Shown: positions 15,109-33,377 of the stretch, one piece after another | Numbering within the stretch: the first letter of the stretch is position 1 | Layout of the letters: each line of letters starts with the position of its first letter | Origin: Ruminiclostridium sp. | GTDB taxonomy: Bacteria; Bacillota; Clostridia; Oscillospirales; Ruminococcaceae | DNA: 33,377 nucleotides | Assembly: GCA_017941355.1 (NCBI GenBank) | Contig: JAGAWN010000106.1 | Span: 1-33,377, forward strand | Direction of reading: 5' to 3' | Notes under the pieces: model-generated | Databases searched by the model: none | Told to the model about the DNA's origin: nothing | The model's input: the letters and a program-made list of their open reading frames with translations, nothing else | Made by a program: the position numbers and the translations under genes

Positions 15109-15137
15109 TTGAAACAATACAGTTTATATGTTATAAT
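15109..15137 (+). promoter_or_regulatory. Promoter of the sensor-GGDEF gene
   Basis: TTGAAA (15109-15114), a 17-base spacer and a perfect TATAAT (15132-15137). The start site is predicted near 15143, within the first bases of structured element copy 1. Confidence 0.8.
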
Positions 15138-15138
15138 C

Positions 15139-15230
15139 AATGTGTCCTCAATAACTGCCTTTTGGCAGCTATTGAGGACACATTCCTTGATGTCAAGCTC
15201 ATTTCGTCTTTCGGACTGACGGCAGACATG
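15139..15230 (+). repeat. Structured multi-hairpin element, copy 1 (minimal form, in 5' UTR)
   Basis: Domain 1 is one long hairpin: TGTGTCCTCAATA pairs with TATTGAGGACACA around CTGCC-TTTT-GGCAG. The spacer TTCCTTGATGTCAAGCTCAT, identical in copies 2, 3 and 4, follows, then GTCTTTCGGAC with a UUCG loop, and the closing GACAT (15225-15229) can pair with ATGTC (15190-15194). It is the shortest copy, lacking the side hairpins of copies 2-4. The GGAGG of the downstream gene begins 22 bases after it. Confidence 0.75.
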
Positions 15231-15264: not shown

Positions 15265-17184
15265 ATGAATAAAGAGCGTTTTAATATCGGTCTTCTTGTT
15301 GCCAATATCTCCGATGCGTTCAGTAACGGACTTGCAAAGGGAGCAATGCGGCGAGCGGGAGAACTCGATGCCGATCTTGTGATAATCCCCGGAAAATATA
15401 TAGGTGTTCAGAACAAATATGAGCAGTACGATACAAAATATGAGTATCAGTACAATGTTCTGTTTGATATTGCGGCAGCCGCAAAACTCGATTATCTGAT
15501 CGTTGCCGCAGGTACTATTGCTTATGCTTATGACGCGAAAAAACAAAAAGCTTTCCTTGACAGTCTCGGAGATACGCCGATACTGAGCGTCGCGGCGGAA
15601 ATAGAGGGGTATGACTTTCTGCAATATGACAATCGTTCCGGTATCGCCGCGGCTGTTGAACATCTTGTAAAGCATGGACGCAGGCATATCGGTTTTATGG
15701 TCGGGGAACTCAATAATTCGGAGTGCGCCGAAAGATACGCGGAATACAGATCGAGCCTTGAAAAACACGGCATAGAGTTCCGGAAAAGCTATGTAACGGA
15801 ATGTGACCTTGCGCATGAGAGCATACACGATGCCCGCCCCTTTATTGAGAAAAATCCCGATCTCGATGCTGTTCTCTGTTTCAATGATATAGTCGCTTCA
15901 AAGCTTTATGAAGTCCTTGCGGAAAAAGGATTGAAAGTCGGTGATGACATAGCCGTCATCGGGTTCGACGATCTCCCGTTCTGCAAGAAGCTGTCACCCG
16001 AACTCGCGTCGGTGCGCGCGGATGCCGAAACGCTTGGTGCGGTATCTGTGGAAAAGGCAGTGAATTTTCTTAGCGGGATCCCGGACGAACGGCACTATGT
16101 CGAAACCCGCTTCATACCGAGGGCGTCATGTCCGTCCGATGATGCGGCTACGGAGGAGAGCGAGGCCCCAAAAAGCTATACGGTTGAAAAATACGAGGTG
16201 CGCACTCATATTGAAAACATATTTATCCGTGATACGCTGATGTTTGACAGTGATCCCGAAATGGGCTATTCACAGATAATGAAGCAATTAAGCTGCATAG
16301 GTGCCGACACCGGATTTATATATATTCTTGAGGAACCTATCGTTCATGCTGTGAAAGGGAAATTCCCGAAAAAGCTGTCGTGGCTGTTCAAGTCATACAG
16401 CTACGGAGAGGACAGATTCTCTGTTCCTGCCGGGGAACAGAAGATGTCAACGCCCTCCGTGTTCCGGAATAAATATCTTGTTTCCGACAGGCAGCGCACA
16501 CTTATTGCCGCCGATCTTTATTCAGCCGAAACACAGTACGGCATAGCGCTGCTGGAGCCGAGAAACGCGGATTTCTTTGATGAGCTTGAGATCGTGACAT
16601 ATCAGCTGAGCGCCGCCGTCCGGACACTCAATATATTGAAAAAGCAGTCCGACCTGCTTGCCGAACTGCATATAAAGAACCTTGCTCTTGAAGAGCTTTC
16701 GCATATTGATGAACTTACAGGTGCAAACAACCGGCGCGGCTTTTATATGGAGGCCGAGAAGCTCGTAAGAGCGGGGAACGGAAAATCGTTCATTGTTTGC
16801 TATGCCGATATGGACGGACTTAAAGCCGTGAATGACACCTACGGACACGATGAGGGGGATTTCTGCATAAAGCTGGTTGCGCAGTGTATGCACAGAATAT
16901 TCGGCGATAAAGCCGTTATCGGCAGAATGGGCGGAGATGAGTTCGCGGCGATAATGATATCGGAGCCTGATCTTCGGCCGTGGGATATCCTCGCTGCACG
17001 CGATGCGTTTGTCAAGAAATTCAACAGCCGGAAGAACAAGCCTTATCAGTTCAACGTTTCGATAGGCGTTCACGATGCACTGATAAAAAATGTATATGAT
17101 CTTCAGAGTGCTGTAAATATAGCTGACAGCTTGTTGTATATAGAAAAGAAAGAAAAGAAACGGCGAGCGGCAACGCTGATGTAG
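15265..17184 (+). CDS. HTH-less LacI/PBP-like sensor fused to GGDEF diguanylate cyclase
   Basis: This 639-residue cytoplasmic protein has no signal peptide or membrane segment. Residues about 5-290 are a LacI/PurR-type periplasmic-binding fold (FNIGLLVANISDAFSNGLAKG at the start, GRRHIGFMVG, DLDAVLCFNDIVASKLYEVL, IAVIGFDDLPF), but the DNA-binding helix-turn-helix that precedes this fold in LacI is absent. Residues about 300-470 are unassigned, possibly GAF-like. A GGDEF domain follows (DELTGANNRRGF at about 482, intact GGDEF 556-560). No RxxD inhibitory site is seen just before GGDEF. Expected role: c-di-GMP synthesis controlled by a small ligand, perhaps the sugar imported by the divergent ABC operon (inference). 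Start ATG 15265 follows GGAGG. Confidence 0.92.
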   Translation: MNKERFNIGLLVANISDAFSNGLAKGAMRRAGELDADLVIIPGKYIGVQNKYEQYDTKYEYQYNVLFDIAAAAKLDYLIVAAGTIAYAYDAKKQKAFLDSLGDTPILSVAAEIEGYDFLQYDNRSGIAAAVEHLVKHGRRHIGFMVGELNNSECAERYAEYRSSLEKHGIEFRKSYVTECDLAHESIHDARPFIEKNPDLDAVLCFNDIVASKLYEVLAEKGLKVGDDIAVIGFDDLPFCKKLSPELASVRADAETLGAVSVEKAVNFLSGIPDERHYVETRFIPRASCPSDDAATEESEAPKSYTVEKYEVRTHIENIFIRDTLMFDSDPEMGYSQIMKQLSCIGADTGFIYILEEPIVHAVKGKFPKKLSWLFKSYSYGEDRFSVPAGEQKMSTPSVFRNKYLVSDRQRTLIAADLYSAETQYGIALLEPRNADFFDELEIVTYQLSAAVRTLNILKKQSDLLAELHIKNLALEELSHIDELTGANNRRGFYMEAEKLVRAGNGKSFIVCYADMDGLKAVNDTYGHDEGDFCIKLVAQCMHRIFGDKAVIGRMGGDEFAAIMISEPDLRPWDILAARDAFVKKFNSRKNKPYQFNVSIGVHDALIKNVYDLQSAVNIADSLLYIEKKEKKRRAATLM

Positions 17185-23825: not shown

Positions 23826-26192
23826 ATGAGTATAACGGGATCCCTTGTCTATACGAACGATAAATGTATAGGCTGCAACAAATGTATTAATGTATGTCCG
23901 GCTATGGGTGCCTGCACTTCCGTTGATGTTGACGGAAATCAGCGCCGCATAACCGTAAACGGAACATACTGCGTATCCTGCGGCGCGTGTATGGACGCGT
24001 GTGTTCACGGAGCGCGCGAGTTCAACGACGACACGGAACGCTTTTTCGCCGATCTTAAAGCGGGGCAGAAGATCTCCCTGCTTCTTGCTCCGGCGTTTCT
24101 GGCAAATTATCCGTCACAGTACGCTTCTGTGCTGGGCGGACTGAAACAGCTCGGCGTGAACCGCATCATATCCGTATCATTCGGCGCGGATATAACAACA
24201 TGGGGATATCTCAACTACATAAAGAAGTATAACTATCTCGGCGGTATATCCCAGCCCTGTCCGGCAGTTGTGAGATACATCGAGGATTATACCCCCGAAC
24301 TGCTGCCGAAGCTTTTCCCGATACACAGTCCGATGATGTGCGCGGCGGTGTATTGCCGCAAGGAACTGAAGATCACCGATAAGCTTGCGTTCATATCCCC
24401 GTGTATAGCAAAGAAGCTTGAGATAGACGATCCGAACAATGACGGTCTTGTGCAGTACAATGTCACCTTCGATCATCTTATGAAGTATGTCAAGGAGCAT
24501 AGGATCAGCGGTCCCGCCTGCACGGACGAGATAGAGTACGGACTCGGTTCCATATATCCTACTCCCGGCGGACTTAAAGAGAACGTGTACTGGTTCCTCG
24601 GCGAGGACGTAGCTATTCGTCAGATAGAGGGCGAAAAGCGTATGTATGAGTGGCTTCAGAAGAACAGAAAGCGTATAAAGGACGGGACTACCCCGTTCCT
24701 GTTCATAGACGCCCTCAACTGCGAGAACGGCTGTATCTGCGGCACGGCGACGGATCCGAAAATGTCGGAAACGGACGACGCGATGTACAACCTGCTTAAA
24801 ATAAAGGAGTCGTCAAAGAAAAAACGTCCGGCAAGCGCCTGGTCAAAGCACGCGTCGCCAAGAATGCGTCTTGCGGCTCTGAACAGACAGTTCAGACATC
24901 TCCGCCTTGAGGACTATATCCGCAAATACACGGACAGATCCCGCGATACCGCGTATAAAACGCCGTCGCAGAGCGAACTCGATTCGATATTCCTTTCCAT
25001 GCGCAAGCTTACAAAACAACAGCAGAATATCAACTGCACCTGCTGCGGATATGAGACTTGCCGGCAGATGGCAACGGCTATCTATAACGGGTTCAACGTC
25101 AAGGAGAACTGCATACACTACCAGAAAGATCACGTTCAGCAGGAAATGGATCATGCCGAGTGTCTTGCCAAGGAGGTTGAGCATCAGCGCGCGCAGGAGA
25201 CCGGTGAGCATCATAAGCTTCTGTCCGCGATCGAGCGTATGGAAAGAGAAGTTGACGATATCTACAAGTCCATTGACGAAATGGCGGCAGGGAATGAACG
25301 CAACGCTTCCGACAGCGGAAACATTGCGCAGAAGATACAGGCTGTCTCCAATTTCACGGAAAACCTTGAAGTCTCCATGAACGAGATACGCGGACTTATA
25401 GATCAGCTCGGAGCAAACAACAAGGAAGTCGTAAGCATAGCGAGCCACACCAATCTGCTTGCGCTTAACGCAGCTATCGAAGCTGCACGCGCAGGTGAGG
25501 CGGGCAAGAGCTTCGCTGTCGTGGCTTCCGAGATCAAGAACCTTGCGACAAACTCCGAGAGTACCGCAAACAACAGCAACGAGAATCAGGCAAAGATAGA
25601 CGAGTCCGCTCTCAATATCATCAAGGGCGCGGAACAGCTCGCAACCGAGGTATCGGCGGTAAGCAACCTTACGAACAGCCTTGCCGAAGCTACCAATGAA
25701 ATGTCAATGACCACCGAGGAGATCCGCAGAAGCATAGGAAATGTCAAGAACGAACTGAGCAATCTCGCGGTTCCCGGAAGCTTGTCTGACGACGCAGGAC
25801 ATTCCGGGCTGTACAGAAAGCATATCCTTATTGCCGAGGACGTCATAATAAGCGCGGAAATGCTCCGTCAGATGCTTTCGGCTGTGGGTGCGTATGCCGA
25901 TATAGCCGAAAACGGACAGAGGGCGGTCGAGATGTTTGAAGAAAGCAGGGACGGCGATTACGCGGCTATCATCATGGATATCCATATGCCGATAATGGAC
26001 GGCATGGAGGCTGCAAGAACGATCAGAGCGCTGCCCCGCGGAGATGCGGGTACTGTGCCGATAATCGCTCTTACCGCAAACAGTGTGGAGTACGATGCCA
26101 AAAAGACTGCAAGTGCCGGAATGAACGCACATCTTTCAAAACCCGCCGATGCTTCCGAACTGCTCAGAACTCTTGAAAGACTTGCCCAATGA
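23826..26192 (+). CDS. [FeFe]-hydrogenase-like redox/H2 sensor fused to chemoreceptor signalling and receiver domains
   Basis: This 788-residue cytoplasmic protein begins with a 2[4Fe-4S] ferredoxin domain (Cys14, 17, 20, 24 and Cys49, 52, 55, 59). A hydrogenase large-subunit-like domain follows (about 80-350) with three H-cluster loops in sensory-type form: SQPCP (Cys145), SPCIAKK (Cys193) and NCENGCICG (Cys299, 303, 305). The first loop lacks the second Cys of catalytic TSCCP, as in HsfB/HydS-type sensory homologues. An Fe-S motif CTCCGYETC...C follows (about 400-430), then a methyl-accepting-chemotaxis signalling coiled coil with [21 protein letters not shown], then a receiver with Asp718 (MDIHMP) and LSKP. 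It probably senses H2 or redox state and signals through CheA/CheW or phosphotransfer. Start ATG follows GAGGTAAG. No hydrogenase maturation or structural gene is adjacent. Confidence 0.92.
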
Positions 26193-26220
26193 TGAAGAAG
26201 CGATTCCGAAAACAATAATA

Positions 26221-26478
26221 AATGTGTCCTCAACAACTGCCTTTTGGCAGTTGTTGTTCCGAAATCCGCAAAGCGGACTTCGGAAAGCCTTAAAAATACG
26301 CTTTCAGCGTCTTTTTAAGGCGGACACATTCCTTGATGTCAAGCTCATTTCGTCCTTCGGACGAACAAAAGTGCAAGGAAAATTTGTTTATTTCGGAATT
26401 TTCCTTGCACTTTTGCAACCGTTAAAAGGTTTCAAGCTGCGCTATGAAGCCTTTTCGCGGTTGATGAGCAGACATTAA
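26221..26478 (+). repeat. Structured multi-hairpin element, copy 2
   Basis: Domain 1 is closed by TGTGTCC (26223-26229) with GGACACA (26325-26331) and holds three hairpins: CAACAACTGCC/GGCAGTTGTTG, TTCCGAAATCCGC/GCGGACTTCGGAA and GCCTTAAAAATACGC/GCGTCTTTTTAAGGC. Next are the conserved spacer TTCCTTGATGTCAAGCTCAT and the hairpin CGTCC-TTCG-GGACG. A perfect 19-pair stem CAAAAGTGCAAGGAAAATT/AATTTTCCTTGCACTTTTG follows, then a hairpin with conserved loop AAGCTGCGCTATGA. The end GATGAGCAGACATT can pair with GATGTCAAGCTCAT and close domain 2. It starts 28 bases after the sensor gene stop. No coding capacity. Confidence 0.85.
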
Positions 26479-26484
26479 TAAAAA

Positions 26485-26522
26485 GCGGCAGAGTATCTAT
26501 CGGATACTCTGCCGCACTTTTT
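26485..26522. terminator. Bidirectional terminator between convergent genes
   Basis: A perfect 13-base stem GCGGCAGAGTATC (26485-26497) with GATACTCTGCCGC (26503-26515), with T-runs in both directions (TTTTT after it on plus, TTTTT read on minus). Confidence 0.92.
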
Positions 26523-26592
26523 GTCAATAAAGCTGTATTGGAGATTCTGTATGCAGATGTTCAGATCTCCGTGAAACGGCATGGGTGCAGCG

Positions 26593-27297
26593 TCACGCGT
26601 TTACCTTGCGGACAATGGAGATCGGGGTCTGCTGAGAACACTGGTCGTGGGGATTGTCGCGGAATACCTGCTCGCCGAACGCTGTCGGGAGATCCTTTCT
26701 GCTCTTGCCGAGGACTGTTGCCGCAATGTCGTTCGCGTCGATAATGATAACATCACAGCCGCAGTGCTTCGCAAGATCCGCCGCAGCTTCGTCGGGCTTG
26801 TCCGGAGCCATTTTTGCGTAATGGTTGTACGGAGGCAGCGTATAGTCGCAGGGACCGTCAATTGCACGGGCTTTCATGCCGCAGATATTGTAGAAAACGC
26901 CTTTCTTGCCGAAAAGTTTGCCGATAGCAGCACAGAATGCCGCCCAAAGCACTTTCGGAACGCCGACCTCGCGTATGCACAGTTCCATGGTCTCCGGCAT
27001 ACCGAGACCGATACCGTAGTTGGTCTTTACAACGAAATGGCTGAGCAGCTTTGCGAGAGGACGAACCTTGATCTCTTCTATCGGGAAAGCGCGTCCCTGA
27101 GTGATCGCAATTATCTTCTCGGAGATAATGACCGTATCGCCCTTTTCGAGATACGGGCAGACGTACTTGTCCAGCACATCGGTCATAACGTCGTCTTTCA
27201 TTATAACGTGAGTTTTTATGGGATAACGCGCATAGGTGCCGAAATCCGTATCTATCGTCAGATTTTTTCCCTCATTGGCTTCAAACGGCATTTCCAT
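26593..27297 (-). CDS. CofE-like coenzyme F420-0:L-glutamate ligase family protein
   Basis: This 234-residue protein is recognised as COG1478 (CofE-like) from GDTVIISEKIIAITQGRAF near residue 50, NYGIGLGMPETMELC, RAIDGPCDYTLPPYN and the C-terminal IDANDIAATVLGKS. True CofE adds glutamate to coenzyme F420-0 using GTP and a divalent metal. No other F420 genes are in the window, and many Clostridia carry this family without making F420, so the substrate is uncertain. Start is set at the second ATG (27297), nine bases after AAAAGGA; the ATG at 27306 touches that site. Promoter at 27339-27367. It converges on the bidirectional terminator at 26485. Confidence 0.87.
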   Translation of the reverse strand: MEMPFEANEGKNLTIDTDFGTYARYPIKTHVIMKDDVMTDVLDKYVCPYLEKGDTVIISEKIIAITQGRAFPIEEIKVRPLAKLLSHFVVKTNYGIGLGMPETMELCIREVGVPKVLWAAFCAAIGKLFGKKGVFYNICGMKARAIDGPCDYTLPPYNHYAKMAPDKPDEAAADLAKHCGCDVIIIDANDIAATVLGKSRKDLPTAFGEQVFRDNPHDQCSQQTPISIVRKVNA

Positions 27298-27338
27298 TTT
27301 TATCATTCCTTTTCGTATCAGTTGTTTGAATAACGTAT

Positions 27339-27367
27339 ATTATACCACATATTTCCGGAATAGTCAA
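27339..27367 (-). promoter_or_regulatory. Promoter of the CofE-like gene
   Basis: On the minus strand TTGACT (27367-27362), a 17-base spacer and a perfect TATAAT (27344-27339), about 42 bases before the start codon. Confidence 0.88.
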
Positions 27368-27380
27368 CCTTTTGCGGAGT

Positions 27381-27544
27381 ATTTTTGCAATTCCTGCGGT
27401 TGTGTTCGCATATAAAAGCGGAAAAATTTGTTATAATAACTGCAAAGTCGCTCGTACTGTGCAATTTGCGGTATTCGACATTTTTGCAATTTCTGTTTTT
27501 TGTACAAAAAGCCTATGTTAAAACGAATGAAAATGTGGTATAAT
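27381..27544 (+). promoter_or_regulatory. Tandem extended -10 promoters upstream of the CarD-like gene
   Basis: ATTTTTGCAATTCCTG (27381-27396) recurs with one change at 27480-27495, and each is followed 51 to 59 bases later by an extended -10 box (TGTTATAAT ending 27437; TGGTATAAT ending 27544). The -35 boxes are poor in both. It looks like a duplicated control segment; the downstream site leaves a leader of about 90 bases. Confidence 0.55.
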
Positions 27545-27641
27545 ATATAAAGGAAAATACTGCGCGGATCGCATACGGATCCTGCGTAAGCATTGCCGGA
27601 AGAAAGTATGTGCGTTTTTCTGACGTTAAGGAGGTTTTGAA

Positions 27642-28154
27642 ATGAATGCGGCAGATTTTTCGGTGAATGATTATGTGGTTTATAAAGGGGTAGGCGTTTG
27701 CCGCATTGAGGCGGTGGAGAACAAAACCTTCGACGATGTGAGATATGAGGATTATTTCAAACTTGTCCCGCTTGGCTCCGGAACATCTTCATATTTTATC
27801 CCCGTGGGCGCTGCCGGAATGAAGCTGCGCAGACCTATGACGGAGGACGAGGTCAATGCTGCGATCGACAATTCCGTAAGCGGCGAGATCAGTCTTACCC
27901 CCAACACCCGTGAGCGCAAGTCCGCAATAGAGTCCATACTGAAAGAGGGGGACTGCACCCGTATCATCACGCTCATCAAAACCATTTACCTGCATACCCA
28001 GACCTGCCGCAGCAACGGCAAGAAAGTTCTCGTTTCCGACGAAAACGCTCTGCGCATGGCAGAGAACATGATCTATCCTGAGTTCTCCTTTGTACTCGGC
28101 ATCGACGAGAAAGAGGTAGCGGGTTACATCGGACGCAGGCTGGAGAATGTTTAA
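27642..28154 (+). CDS. CarD family transcriptional regulator
   Basis: This 170-residue protein matches the CarD/CdnL family: an N-terminal RNA-polymerase-interacting Tudor-like domain (about 5-65: FSVNDYVVYKGVGVCRIEAV, DYFKLVPL, SYFIPV) and a helical C-terminal domain (about 70-170) ending in a region that in homologues contacts promoter DNA. CarD proteins bind the beta subunit and stabilise open complexes at many promoters. A strong ribosome binding site (AAGGAGG) precedes ATG 27642. The two promoters lie upstream. Structured element copy 3 starts five bases after its stop codon, and no separate promoter was found for the large sensor-EAL gene further on, so the two may be co-transcribed through the element. 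Confidence 0.9.
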   Translation: MNAADFSVNDYVVYKGVGVCRIEAVENKTFDDVRYEDYFKLVPLGSGTSSYFIPVGAAGMKLRRPMTEDEVNAAIDNSVSGEISLTPNTRERKSAIESILKEGDCTRIITLIKTIYLHTQTCRSNGKKVLVSDENALRMAENMIYPEFSFVLGIDEKEVAGYIGRRLENV

Positions 28155-28159
28155 TAATT

Positions 28160-28418
28160 AATGTGTCCTCAATAACTGCCTTTTGGCAGTTATTGCCTGA
28201 AAGTCTGTAAAACAGACTTTCAGATGTTGTTCCAATGCACCTGCAGCGCATTGGAACAACGGACACATTCCTTGATGTCAAGCTCATTTCGTCCTTCGGA
28301 CGAACAAAAGTGCAAGGAAAATTTTAAAAAATGGGGAATTTTCCTTGCACTTTTGCAGCCAACAAATTGCTTCAAGCTGCGCTATGAAGCAATTTGTTGG
28401 CTGATGAGCAGACATTAA
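28160..28418 (+). repeat. Structured multi-hairpin element, copy 3
   Basis: The plan matches copy 2 with different arms. Domain 1 is closed by TGTGTCC/GGACACA and holds CAATAACTGCC/GGCAGTTATTG, CTGAAAGTCTG/CAGACTTTCAG and GTTGTTCCAATGC/GCATTGGAACAAC. The identical spacer and TTCG hairpin follow, then the long CAAAAGTGCAAGGAAAATT stem, then GCCAACAAATTGCTTCA/TGAAGCAATTTGTTGGC around the conserved loop, and the closing GATGAGCAGACATT. Arms differ from copies 2 and 4 on both sides, so pairing is preserved. It fills the gap between the CarD-like gene and the sensor-EAL gene. Confidence 0.88.
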
Positions 28419-28447
28419 GTATTTTAATACCGGACAGGTGATATGAT

Positions 28448-31400
28448 TTGATAAACAACAAAATAATAGTAGGTATCTGCATAACAAAGATCGAGGACGA
28501 TTTCAGGGTTGATTTTCTGTCAAGTCTGCTTAAAAAAACAGGCAGTGACAACATCAAGATGATCGTTTTCAACAGTCCCCGCGACTTCTATTACGGCGAC
28601 AAGTATGACAAGGGTGCGCGTCAGGTCTATGATCTCATAAACTATGATTATCTGGACGCGCTTGTTATCCTGCGTGAAAACTTCTATGACGAGCAGGTTG
28701 TAGAATCTATTATCGGCAAAGCAGAAAAGCATAACGTACCGGTCATACTCGTTCACGGCGAGCATGAGAACTGTTACTGCATAAAAAGCGATTACAAAGA
28801 CGCTTACAAGGAATTGCTCGGACACCTTTTCACTTGTCACGGAATTAAAGATCCCGTATTCATCGGCGGCAGGCAGGAGGATGATCCGGACACTGTAACA
28901 CGCCTTGAATGTTTCAGGGAAGTTCTTGCCGAGAACGGTATCTCCTACCGGGACGATATGCTGTACTACGGTGAATACTGGGATTTCCCGACGCAGAGCG
29001 CGGTACAGAAGATCCTCTCGCGCAGCACCAAGGCACCGGACGCTTTTGTGTGCGCAAACGACACAATGGCTATGGCTGTATGCAACGAGCTTGCAGCTGA
29101 GGGGTACAAAGTCCCGGGGGATATTAAAGTAACCGGATTTGACGGTCTGATAAGCGCAGAATACTTCATGCCCCGGCTCAGCACCTGCCGTGAGGATATA
29201 GATTCACTTACCGGAATCACTGTTGACCTTATCAAATCAGCGATTGGCGGCAGCTCCGAACCGGGCGTATATATTGAGAAGTATGTGTCGTTCATAGGGG
29301 AATCCTGCGGCTGTGAATACAAGGAGGTCATCGACTTCCGCGAAAGAGCGAGACTTCTGTTCATGCGCAACTACGAAACCGGTCAGCATGAGGGACACGT
29401 TTATACTTGGGTGGATTCTGTACTCGACAGCGACAGCATCAATACCCTCAGCCTTGCTCTGAGCGACTACATACTCCGGAATTCCAGCGTATGTCTGAAT
29501 GAGGGATTTATAATGACATCTCTCGGTCAGACTGCCGAGATCTCACCGGATCAGTCATTCAACGAATACATTGTCATTTCCTCCAAGACCAGCGATTACT
29601 CCGGCGGCAAAGAGGGCAGATTTCCTGCGGCTGAAATGGTCCCCGATCTCTCCAAATGGCTTGAGGATCCGACATTATGTGTTATCACCCCGATAGTATC
29701 AGCCGATGTGAACTGCGGTTACTACGCAGTCAAAACAGACGATATATACGAGAACGCACATAAGCTATTCAGAGTTTCAAAAACTATGAATATCGCATTC
29801 GGCGCACTGCTGAACCGTCTTATGAAGCGCAATATGCAGAGCAGTATAATAAACGCTCAGCTTATTGACCAGCTCACCGGACTTGCCAACCTCAAGGGGC
29901 TTACCAACTGGTTCCGGGAATTCTCGCGCGTTGAAGCCAATCACAACAAGACCGTTATGGTTTCGGTATATAATATTCCTCAGTATAAGTTCATTTATGA
30001 GAACTACGGCATGGAAGATATCGAAGAAGCCGTTAAATTCACGGCAGATACGCTCAAGCTTGCCAACAAGGACAACGGTTTCATTGCAAGAACCGGAAAC
30101 GACGAGTTTATCGTTATCAATTCCGTTGACAGCGAAGACCAGGTAAGCATGGTAATAGACAATGCCGTATCCGTGTTCTTCGGTATCATCGAGGGATATA
30201 ACACAAGCAACAACAAGGATTACTATCTTGAAGTTAACTGCGGCTGCACAGTCGCTTACGCGGGCTGGAACAGCAGCCTCAGCAGTTTCATAAAGCTTGC
30301 CAACGCGGAAATGTACATGAACAAGCTGAAAGCGGGACTTACACCGGTAATGAAAGACGAGGCTATCCGTCAGCAGCCGGAGGTCAAGACTCCCAATGAT
30401 CTTTACAGCGAGTTCAGCATTCTTATCGAAAAGAACCTGTTTACATACTTCTTCCAGCCTATCATCGACGCGCGCACCGGTGAGATCTGCGCCTATGAGG
30501 CGCTTATGAGGACAAGCGGCGGTATCAAGATGTCACCGCTGGAGATACTCGATATAGCCAAGGAATACAACCGTCTTTACGAGATAGAAAAAGCCACAAT
30601 GTTCAACGTCATGGACAGATATGTGCGCGATATGGATAAGTTCAAAGGAACAAAGGTGTTCATAAACACTATACCCGGCAACTTCCTGAAAAAAGATGAT
30701 CTTATCGGACTCAAAGAGAAATACGGACAGTACATTTCCAACTTCGTTTTTGAGATAACCGAACAGGACACGGTTTCGGACGAGGAACTTGACGCTATCA
30801 GAAGTCTCGGCGTTGTCGGAAATTCCGAGGAGTTCAAGGGTATGGAGGGCGGACAGATAGCTGTTGACGACTACGGCACCGGTCACTCCAACATAGTGAA
30901 TCTTCTGAGATACGCGCCGCATATCATCAAGATAGACCGCTTCCTCATCAGCAATATCCAGAACGATCTCAACAAGCAGATGTTTGTAAAAAGCACTATC
31001 GAGTTCTCAAAGATGAACAACATCAAGGTGCTTGCCGAGGGCGTGGAAACGTATGAGGAAATGAAAACCGTAATCGAGTTCGGCGTTGATCTTATCCAAG
31101 GGTATTACACCGCCCGCCCGGCACAGGATCCTATCGGGAAGATACCGGACGCTATACGCAATGAGGTCATTACTGAAAATCTCAATCTTTCCAAATACGA
31201 CAACGATAAACTTACATACCGCGCTCACGACGGCGAGACCATCAGCCTGTACGATCTTGCAATAGGGAAATACGCCAGCATACGCATTCCTGACGGTAAT
31301 GTGCGGATAGTCGGCACCGAGGGACAGACTTTCGAGACAGAGCTAAGTATCGACGACGACGCAAATGCGGTCATAACTTTCGATAACATCAGCATCAAAG

Positions 31401-32392
31401 CAATGGCGAATCCGGCGATCACTCTCGGACGTTCAAGCAAAGCCGAGATCAGACTTGTCGGAGAAAACTCGATACAGAAGAACGGCATCAGCGTTCCCGC
31501 AAACTCTTCCCTGCTGTTCAGCGGCGACGGTGATCTGAACATCAACATAAAGAGAAACGGCAGCGTATGTATCGGAAGCTCCCACGAGGAAGCATACGGC
31601 GGTATCTCCTTTGAACATACCGGAAACATCACTGTCGAACTTCAGCTTGACAACGGCATCTGCATCGGCGGAGGCTTCTCGGACGGTTCCGCGATCAATT
31701 TCGCAAGCGGCAGCGTTTCAATACTTTTGCAGTGCGTGAATTCTATCGGTGTCGGCAGCCTGCGCGGAAAGGCTGATGTCACGATCGCGGCCGATGCTTC
31801 GGTAACAGTAAAATGCAGCGGTAAGAACGCTGTCGGAATAGGTTCATTTGACGGAACGCTGAATCTTGAAAGCAGCGGAATCATTGACGCTGTAGCTGAC
31901 GGCGAGACTTGTGCCGCCTGCGGTGTTTTAGGAACAGGTAACGCTAATATCAGGATATCGGGCGGCTCCGTAAGTGCAGTTGTCCACAGCTCCAAAGCGG
32001 TATGTATCGGCTCTGTAGAGGGTCCCTCCGATATCACGATCACCGACGGTTACATTAACGCATACGGCGAGGGCGATATTATCTGCGGCTGCGGAAGCGC
32101 GGAGGTTGCGGGTGTGACGCATATCGAAGGCGGCACAGTTGCGATCAAGATCCTCTCCGGCTGTATTCTGCAGTTCGGCAGCGTGAAATGCTCAACCATA
32201 ATCACCGGCGGAAACATTCTTGCCGACAAGGAAGATCTTGTATATGCCGTGAACAAGTTCGGTGAGCAGCTTCACGCGGAGCATCCCGGCGGTGACAGCT
32301 TCTATACGACAGTAACAACTCCGCACGGCGAGTATTTGTACCGTGCTGAGAAAAAAGCACCGGACGATGATTTAATTGTATTCCTGCCTTAA
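28448..32392 (+). CDS. HTH-less LacI/PBP-like sensor, degenerate GGDEF, EAL phosphodiesterase and beta-helix-like C-terminus
   Basis: This 1314-residue protein has no signal peptide or membrane segment. Residues 1-290 are a LacI/PurR-type binding fold (IIVGICITKIEDDF, DAFVCANDTMAMAVCNEL, IKVTGFDGLISAEYF) without the DNA-binding HTH. About 300-460 is an unassigned sensory region. The GGDEF domain is degenerate (GNDEF 550-554), so it is probably inactive or a GTP-sensing module. The EAL domain (about 650-900) keeps YEAL (Glu684), INTIP, FEITE, DDYGTG, KIDRF, AEGVET and QGYY, the residues for metal binding and hydrolysis of c-di-GMP to pGpG. About 930-1290 is a beta-helix-like repeat region rich in G, S, N and I (SVCIGSSHEE, GICIGGGF, CIGSVEG), of a type usually seen in surface proteins. 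The start is TTG 28448 with AGGTGA upstream. A terminator follows directly. Confidence 0.9.
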   Translation: MINNKIIVGICITKIEDDFRVDFLSSLLKKTGSDNIKMIVFNSPRDFYYGDKYDKGARQVYDLINYDYLDALVILRENFYDEQVVESIIGKAEKHNVPVILVHGEHENCYCIKSDYKDAYKELLGHLFTCHGIKDPVFIGGRQEDDPDTVTRLECFREVLAENGISYRDDMLYYGEYWDFPTQSAVQKILSRSTKAPDAFVCANDTMAMAVCNELAAEGYKVPGDIKVTGFDGLISAEYFMPRLSTCREDIDSLTGITVDLIKSAIGGSSEPGVYIEKYVSFIGESCGCEYKEVIDFRERARLLFMRNYETGQHEGHVYTWVDSVLDSDSINTLSLALSDYILRNSSVCLNEGFIMTSLGQTAEISPDQSFNEYIVISSKTSDYSGGKEGRFPAAEMVPDLSKWLEDPTLCVITPIVSADVNCGYYAVKTDDIYENAHKLFRVSKTMNIAFGALLNRLMKRNMQSSIINAQLIDQLTGLANLKGLTNWFREFSRVEANHNKTVMVSVYNIPQYKFIYENYGMEDIEEAVKFTADTLKLANKDNGFIARTGNDEFIVINSVDSEDQVSMVIDNAVSVFFGIIEGYNTSNNKDYYLEVNCGCTVAYAGWNSSLSSFIKLANAEMYMNKLKAGLTPVMKDEAIRQQPEVKTPNDLYSEFSILIEKNLFTYFFQPIIDARTGEICAYEALMRTSGGIKMSPLEILDIAKEYNRLYEIEKATMFNVMDRYVRDMDKFKGTKVFINTIPGNFLKKDDLIGLKEKYGQYISNFVFEITEQDTVSDEELDAIRSLGVVGNSEEFKGMEGGQIAVDDYGTGHSNIVNLLRYAPHIIKIDRFLISNIQNDLNKQMFVKSTIEFSKMNNIKVLAEGVETYEEMKTVIEFGVDLIQGYYTARPAQDPIGKIPDAIRNEVITENLNLSKYDNDKLTYRAHDGETISLYDLAIGKYASIRIPDGNVRIVGTEGQTFETELSIDDDANAVITFDNISIKAMANPAITLGRSSKAEIRLVGENSIQKNGISVPANSSLLFSGDGDLNINIKRNGSVCIGSSHEEAYGGISFEHTGNITVELQLDNGICIGGGFSDGSAINFASGSVSILLQCVNSIGVGSLRGKADVTIAADASVTVKCSGKNAVGIGSFDGTLNLESSGIIDAVADGETCAACGVLGTGNANIRISGGSVSAVVHSSKAVCIGSVEGPSDITITDGYINAYGEGDIICGCGSAEVAGVTHIEGGTVAIKILSGCILQFGSVKCSTIITGGNILADKEDLVYAVNKFGEQLHAEHPGGDSFYTTVTTPHGEYLYRAEKKAPDDDLIVFLP

Positions 32393-33102: not shown

Positions 33103-33208
33103 ATATATCACCTTTCCTTATTCTCTTTGTGCAATAATAATTTCCGCAGTTTTTTCCGAATTATACGGGAGCTTACGCTTATGGAAAAAAATGTTCTGTA
33201 CATATTTA

Positions 33209-33377
33209 TTGGCTGCAAAAGCGCAAGGAAAATCTATATATTTTAGGATTTTCCTTGCACTTTTGTTCGTCCGAAGGACGAAATGAGCTTGACATCAAGG
33301 AATGTGTCCGTTGTTTAAATGCACCGCAGGCGCATTTAAACAACATCTGAAAATCTGTTTTGCAGATTTTCAGTCAA
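33209..33377 (-). repeat. Structured multi-hairpin element, copy 4 (cut by window end)
   Basis: On the minus strand from 33377 it reads CTGAAAATCTG/CAGATTTTCAG, GTTGTTTAAATGC/GCATTTAAACAAC, then GGACACA, the identical spacer, the TTCG hairpin and a long stem CAAAAGTGCAAGGAAAATC/GATTTTCCTTGCGCTTTTG. Homology stops at GCAGCCAA (about 33209), so the last hairpin and closing strand are missing; the first hairpin lies beyond the window. It sits about 105 bases upstream of the SleB start, in the same orientation. Confidence 0.85.

Follow-up and report, generated by a model that had tools for sequence, protein, structure and literature searches.

Bacterial miniature inverted-repeat transposable elements (MITEs) such as Correia/NEMIS, ERIC, RUP, and YPAL are, as portrayed in the excerpts cited here, small, gene-less, interspersed, and mostly intergenic, with target duplications, stable folded transcripts, and imperfect terminal repeats (PMC2229807, PMC10969869). 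A repeat of much the same character occurs on a 33,377-nt contig of Ruminiclostridium sp. (JAGAWN010000106.1, assembly GCA_017941355.1; this whole stretch is hereafter the window): a short, interspersed unit without genes, present in many copies and accompanied by a target-site duplication, and in these respects like a bacterial MITE in the broad sense. The element is longer than the MITEs of those accounts (242-256 bp at full length, as opposed to about 100-200 bp) and is flanked by 6-bp repeats, whereas most MITEs described there carry a TA motif (PMC2229807, PMC10969869); it is further set apart by two cloverleaf domains, a one-way orientation, and a TATAAT target, and no mobilizing insertion sequence (IS) was found for it. 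BOX and RUP of pneumococcus resemble it in being modular or compact, tightly folding, judged parasitic, and co-transcribable into operon ends; compared by description only and as far as the cited excerpt goes, BOX has the form boxA-(boxB)n-boxC with a variable number of boxB units and is proposed to be mobilized via an IS with like terminal repeats, whereas our element has fixed domains shortened by deletion and no such IS was found (PMC3049150). The bcr1-bcr18 repeats of the Bacillus cereus group are likewise MITE-like intergenic repeats of Firmicutes, often in untranslated regions (UTRs) and some with conserved structure; the excerpted description, to which the comparison is confined in place of sequence, mentions no -10-box target (PMC3446304). 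No described family with this plan was found in the literature searched, one open-licence collection, in line with a preliminary description of the window that had been made from the sequence alone and that knew of none.

We consider it quite probable that the element is a non-autonomous, MITE-like DNA transposable element. Its many copies mostly lie between 6-bp direct repeats and, in types A-E, face one way; the insertion sites of these types are of the TATAAWWA kind, very often the promoter-like TATAAT; and its single strand is predicted to fold into a six-hairpin plan of two adjacent cloverleaf domains across types A-H. The preliminary description, made without the tools for it, had missed that insertions duplicate their target, favor TATAAT, and face one way, and hence that the element is mobile.

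Direct repeats of 6 bp flank 70 of 105 copies, compared with 17.3 when flanks are shuffled. The largest set has 138 copies, of which 105 lie between repeats of 5 bp or more (6 bp in 99, 7 bp in five, 5 bp in one), 41 of the 105 being short deletion forms; this set covers copies with at least 10 bp of flank on each side and both ends, no more than 340 or 420 bp apart depending on the subset. REP/REPIN and IS200/IS605-type elements combine palindromes, structure-based recognition, and a fixed orientation to the target, and they are not known to make a target duplication, so the 6-bp duplications place the element outside that group. Which sequence is repeated does not depend on how closely the elements are related (9.5 of 47 nearest neighbors agree, 8.0 by shuffle, P 0.28); each copy thus appears to have formed its repeat from the site where it landed, consistent with a staggered cut at every new target rather than with an overlap handed down. 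This independence bears on a rival origin that we regard as highly improbable, namely, a cassette moved by a tyrosine recombinase (attC-like or Tn916-like) through a circle junction of 11-6-11, TGAGCAGACAT-TAATTA-ATGTGTCCTCA. Such a cassette would account for the one-way orientation and for the 8 of 138 right flanks in which the repeat is directly followed by another left end; we take the arm and spacer lengths of the junction to fit tyrosine-recombinase sites, and folded single-strand substrates are known from integron cassettes. However, both flanking repeats are identical in 105 of the 138 copies, and repeats that vary independently of relatedness do not behave like an overlap passed on by descent or like a coupling sequence from the donor; at P 0.28, a donor overlap inherited as in tyrosine recombinases was rejected, recombinase genes themselves not having been searched. 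Tandem elements with one common 6-bp repeat between them were seen at L009, L107, L193, L210, L220, and L272.

Orientation relative to an asymmetric target could be read in types A-E, where 67 insertions are forward and none is reverse; another 38 have palindromic repeats, with an extra TA on the left only in 21, on the right only in none, on both sides in five, and on neither in 12. Because 46 of the 67 forward copies lie outside TATAAT, the one-way orientation is not due to promoter selection alone. TATAAT precedes 50 of 107 insertions, as against 189 of 3132 background sites, coding sites included (odds ratio 13.7, P 5e-30), and insertion there leaves the -10 box intact; AATAAT and TATAAA are enriched less than 2-fold, roughly what gene avoidance alone might produce. 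A need for a -35 box beyond TATAAT was considered and rejected (18/50 copies versus 54/189 background TATAAT sites, P 0.30). By mechanical calls of open reading frames (ORFs), 97 copies lie between divergent ORFs (35), between ORFs reading in the direction of the element (28), between convergent ORFs (23), or between ORFs reading against it (11); the ORF downstream of TATAAT-class copies is sense in 33 and antisense in 10, and in 8 of the 97 the upstream sense ORF stops exactly at the TAA of the repeat.

One-way orientation and a position just after TATAAT would also be expected of a retroelement resembling short interspersed nuclear elements (SINEs), transcribed by a host promoter from about its first bases, with target-primed reverse transcription of that RNA placing a copy in another -10 box. 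Two left-truncated copies with flank repeats by eye (L181, L209) are consistent with such a route, which we nevertheless hold to be very remote: reverse transcriptase (PF00078) matches in two of eight carrier genomes and is without a match in the other six, the repeats hardly vary in length, truncation is seen on the right as well as on the left, and a start expected 2-4 bases inside the element would cause its ends to be lost. Target-primed retrotransposition was also weighed for the left-truncated copies by themselves and discarded, as truncation also occurs on the right and, by eye, several of the left-truncated copies lack a repeat.

The fold of the element is far beyond chance. Copy 2 of the window reaches -93.9 kcal/mol as single-stranded DNA (z -17.5) and copy 3 reaches -145.1 as RNA (z -19.5); in neither case did any of 200 shuffles do as well. 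Two closed domains of three hairpins each, separated by a six-base joint, are predicted for representatives of types A-D and for L271 of type E; in L273 of type E and in type F the element's two ends are predicted to pair with each other instead, types G and H have partial closing helices, yet the six hairpins recur in all types A-H. Alignment A1 comprises 70 distinct copies of full length from types A-E. Among its 7347 cells, 91.5% pair, whereas shuffling gives 82.1% and sliding the partners no more than 39.7%; the structure, derived from the same sequences, is favored against the slid control, and helices 3 and 4 show less pairing because domain 1 of type E is poorly aligned. In the same alignment both sides change in 56 of the 108 pairs and the covariation score is 0.257, versus 0.111 shuffled and at most 0.071 with slid partners; the count of further pair types is not above shuffles (375 of 500 reach it). 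An interspersed family with common joints, hairpins, and matched arm differences had been described from the window's four copies, together with two adjoining multi-branched domains; the family is as described once its ends are refined, the domains are borne out by the predicted folds and by covariation, and the compensatory differences are real and hold in this larger alignment. The architecture itself seems to be kept, to judge from a six-hairpin plan that recurs across types with little common arm sequence and in at least two families.

Changes in length also touch the fold. In five copies (L007, L013, L025, L072, and L229), hairpins 5 and 6 are deleted with the same junction (..ACAGCAGACATT) and differing arms, a recurrence that looks as if the fold directed where the element gets shortened. 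Another locus (L056/L237, G041:C16) has an extra palindromic insert of ~68 bp, possibly a nested small repeat, in the top of hairpin 3, and L090 and G075:C302 perhaps carry the same insert, to go by length or a split match.

Covariation of this strength, with so stable a fold and a plan that recurs in types A-H, could be the work of a functional structured RNA, a 5'-UTR regulator or a stand-alone molecule, under RNA-fold selection and with mobility secondary; the preponderance of sense genes after TATAAT-class copies (33 to 10) would suit it. If selection acted on sense RNA, it should spare G-U, and G-U is not preferred over A-C. Private single-sided changes, scored by comparing each of 54 distinct copies of types A-D with its five nearest neighbors, comprise 37 G-U, 52 A-C, and 57 other, besides 41 both-sided changes to another Watson-Crick pair; private changes may be neutral drift of settled copies, and the shared genotypes (common to at least three copies), which weigh more yet are few, give 8 G-U, 17 A-C, and 25 other. 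The 16 copies of type E give 13 G-U and 14 A-C. Nor would an RNA function readily explain that 23 of 97 copies sit between convergent ORFs or that internal deletions of many sizes persist, and an Rfam search of the window returned no match, one of four loci 13 matches, all below gathering scores (best E 0.0046), in keeping with the preliminary description, which knew of no such family. We therefore judge a structured RNA improbable as the main explanation.

The arms bear marks of a process acting on DNA. Exact inversions of the hairpin top occur in three of the six hairpins, H3 (15 nt), H5 (30 nt), and H6 (20 nt), in one copy each versus 5, 2, and 35 copies, respectively; none was found in H1, H2, or H4. 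Template switching between the arms of inverted repeats is reported to homogenize the arms and invert spacers (PMC8604942) and to be capable of yielding compensatory changes (PMC8794818). The lack of a G-U excess and the three top inversions favor DNA-level palindrome correction over RNA selection for much of the matching and point to correction as its source. It is possible, although we doubt it, that the whole compensatory pattern arose from template switching within inverted repeats at replication, with no selection on the fold. The inversions and the published precedents speak for this, as do Watson-Crick alternatives present in at least two copies, 32 of transversion type and 26 of transition type. 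Template switching alone, however, would leave unexplained why the same plan and joints appear in types A-H, in different genera and families, and why H1, H2, and H4 lack exact inversions; mosaic mispaired arms (e.g., L080 and L165) indicate that correction is incomplete. We infer that the plan is kept by selection for mobilization and the arms largely by DNA-level correction. The proposal that the fold is selected in RNA or single-stranded DNA thus survives in part: the architecture appears to be kept and the G-U/A-C test is compatible with selection for folding at the DNA level, but the matched changes do not argue for selection on an RNA fold.

The element is abundant in its host and extends beyond the genus. 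Its own genome (G000; 4.5 Mb in 300 contigs) has 39 spacer matches with at most two mismatches, and three congeners have 52, 17, and 12, with none for a reversed-pattern control; the data are mostly metagenome bins, and the counts are drawn from several species, with inherited insertions perhaps among them. Assemblies of these genomes often break at the element: in the own genome, 27 of the 39 matches lie within 260 bp of a contig end. Viral contigs contain no exact spacer match. Among the matches listed, titled records with the exact spacer are metagenome-assembled genomes named Ruminiclostridium, Ruminococcus, Ruminococcaceae, Oscillospiraceae, or uncultured Clostridia, from goat or water-deer stomach or a rumen co-assembly where titles give a source. 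BLAST with copy 2 finds the element in 18 of 71 genomes of the genus, its own included, and a genome with type G (G019) brings the carriers to at least 19 of 71; type D (G073, G074) has the same plan with other arms. The spacer pattern matches 12 of 297 genomes of the family, and besides the own genome two of these, G342 and G309 from two further genera, have real elements (type E); the other nine have no element and, by eye, coding-like sequence, and the spacer-matching genome G014 has a spacer-like stretch only. A covariance model of domain 2 (R1), run over 394 genomes of the order under strict filters (E <= 0.001), matches seven. The matches are clear elements in the own genome, G073, G019, and G623 (type F, another family); the element in G457 (type H, a further family; E 8.7e-4, repeat TATATAA) is probable, and the matches in G506 and G507 are uncertain.

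Within the window, which is one whole contig (G000:C277), one copy is intact, one has its full length but doubtful flanks, and two are incomplete. The complete element is ~254 bp long with the exact ends ATGTG...GACAT, refining the boundaries drawn earlier. Copy 2 (26222-26475, plus strand, 254 bp) is intact and lies between target duplications TAATAA at 26216-26221 and 26476-26481. Its domain 1 (26222-26329) has the closing helix ATGTGTCC/GGACACAT and three hairpins, supported by fold and by covariation (helices 1-4); the linker TCCTTG (26330-26335) leads to domain 2 (26336-26475), the basis of R1, with the closing helix ATGTC..GCTCAT / ATGAGC.GACAT and hairpins 4-6, of which hairpin 5 (CAAAAGTGCAAGG...CCTTGCACTTTTG, 26366-26415) has a lower stem (helix 8) of nearly invariant sequence. 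The protein encoded at 23826-26192 combines an iron-only hydrogenase C-terminal domain, ferredoxin motifs, an MCP signaling domain, and a response-regulator receiver (Pfam).

Copy 3 (28161-28415, plus strand, 255 bp) is complete and has unlike flanks, TAATTA at 28155-28160 and TAAGTA at 28416-28421. The sequence to its left, with 60 bp of a CarD-type gene, recurs on contig C131 beside a different right flank; between window positions 28101-28421 and L307/L120 (G000:C131), one left flank is joined to two right flanks in the same genome bin. Given these two right flanks and the non-matching repeats, the copy 3 junction is likely a chimeric join or a recombination. The CarD-type gene has matches in 15 other genomes of the genus, with an element left end within 400 bp after it in 0 of 15; one of them (L292) has a lone right-end match, with one mismatch, after the gene.

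Copy 1 (15140-15229, plus strand) is a deletion form in which the first hairpin of domain 1 is self-closed by ATGTGTCC/GGACACAT (15140-15183), followed by the spacer and a remnant of domain 2 that runs to GCAGACAT; its right end has no matching repeat. By eye, a promoter-like site precedes it on the same strand (15109-15137), with TTGAAA at 15109-15114, 17 bp, and TATAAT at 15132-15137. The gene just downstream (15265-17184), like the one just after copy 3 (28448-32392), encodes LacI-type periplasmic-binding and GGDEF domains, the latter gene with an additional EAL domain (Pfam). Copy 4 (33204-33377, minus strand) runs off the contig, whose end cuts it on the left, and on the right it breaks inside hairpin 6 near 33204.

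Several observations weigh against a MITE-like element moved in trans. Among the 138 copies, 33 have no matching repeat. The three copies of type G have the repeats TTATTA and TATGTA and one unlike pair, none of them TAANNA, and in type F the two repeats of one copy out of three differ by a single base. No clean empty site was found: of four candidates at 69-77% identity, one is occupied and at most one is convincing. The ends are imperfect inverted repeats in types A-C (ATGTGTCCTCA versus ATGTCTGCTCA, 9 of 11 positions) and differ more in types D, G, and H. No autonomous relative with these ends turned up among the matches listed in end searches of four, two, and two genomes, nor did scans for the repeat plus ends reveal an autonomous element in 1.0 Mb of loci or 1.18 Mb of G342. 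Of the two transposase families searched, DDE_Tnp_1 matches in two and rve in three of seven carriers, and both are absent from three of the seven. Multi-copy IS proteins in the same 1.18 Mb were considered and rejected, its 1032 called ORFs containing one near-identical pair, and G342, G041, and G074 have none of DDE_Tnp_1, rve, and reverse transcriptase, G041 being 79% and G074 83% complete.

We posit that the MITE-like element is mobilized by a trans-acting enzyme that would recognize two unlike ends, through the conserved right end GATGAGC.GACAT with its partner strand and through hairpin 5, and would cut the target with a 6-bp stagger and join the ends asymmetrically, thereby fixing the orientation. 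Landings could be tolerated where the -35 and -10 boxes keep their positions and transcription reaches the gene by running through the insertion, the start-site geometry at promoter copies being deduced from sequence, or where the duplicated TAA restores a stop codon. Folding would matter for mobilization at the DNA level, and template switching inside the palindromes could keep the arms matched while flipping the hairpin tops. More tentatively, this could be the first transposable-element family that prefers the promoter -10 box, strictly one-way, and is moved in trans by an unrecognized enzyme that reads a single strand folded into twin cloverleaves instead of terminal repeats, with host promoters driving transcription from the first element bases.

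For structured repeats more generally, the element is a cautionary case: strong covariation alone does not mean RNA selection, as DNA-level palindrome correction can leave the same mark, and comparing G-U with A-C changes and looking for loop inversions help to distinguish between them. A mobile repeat that inserts into the start signals of genes, leaves them unbroken, and faces one direction points to an unusual, asymmetric choice of target and possibly to a so-far unrecognized enzyme.

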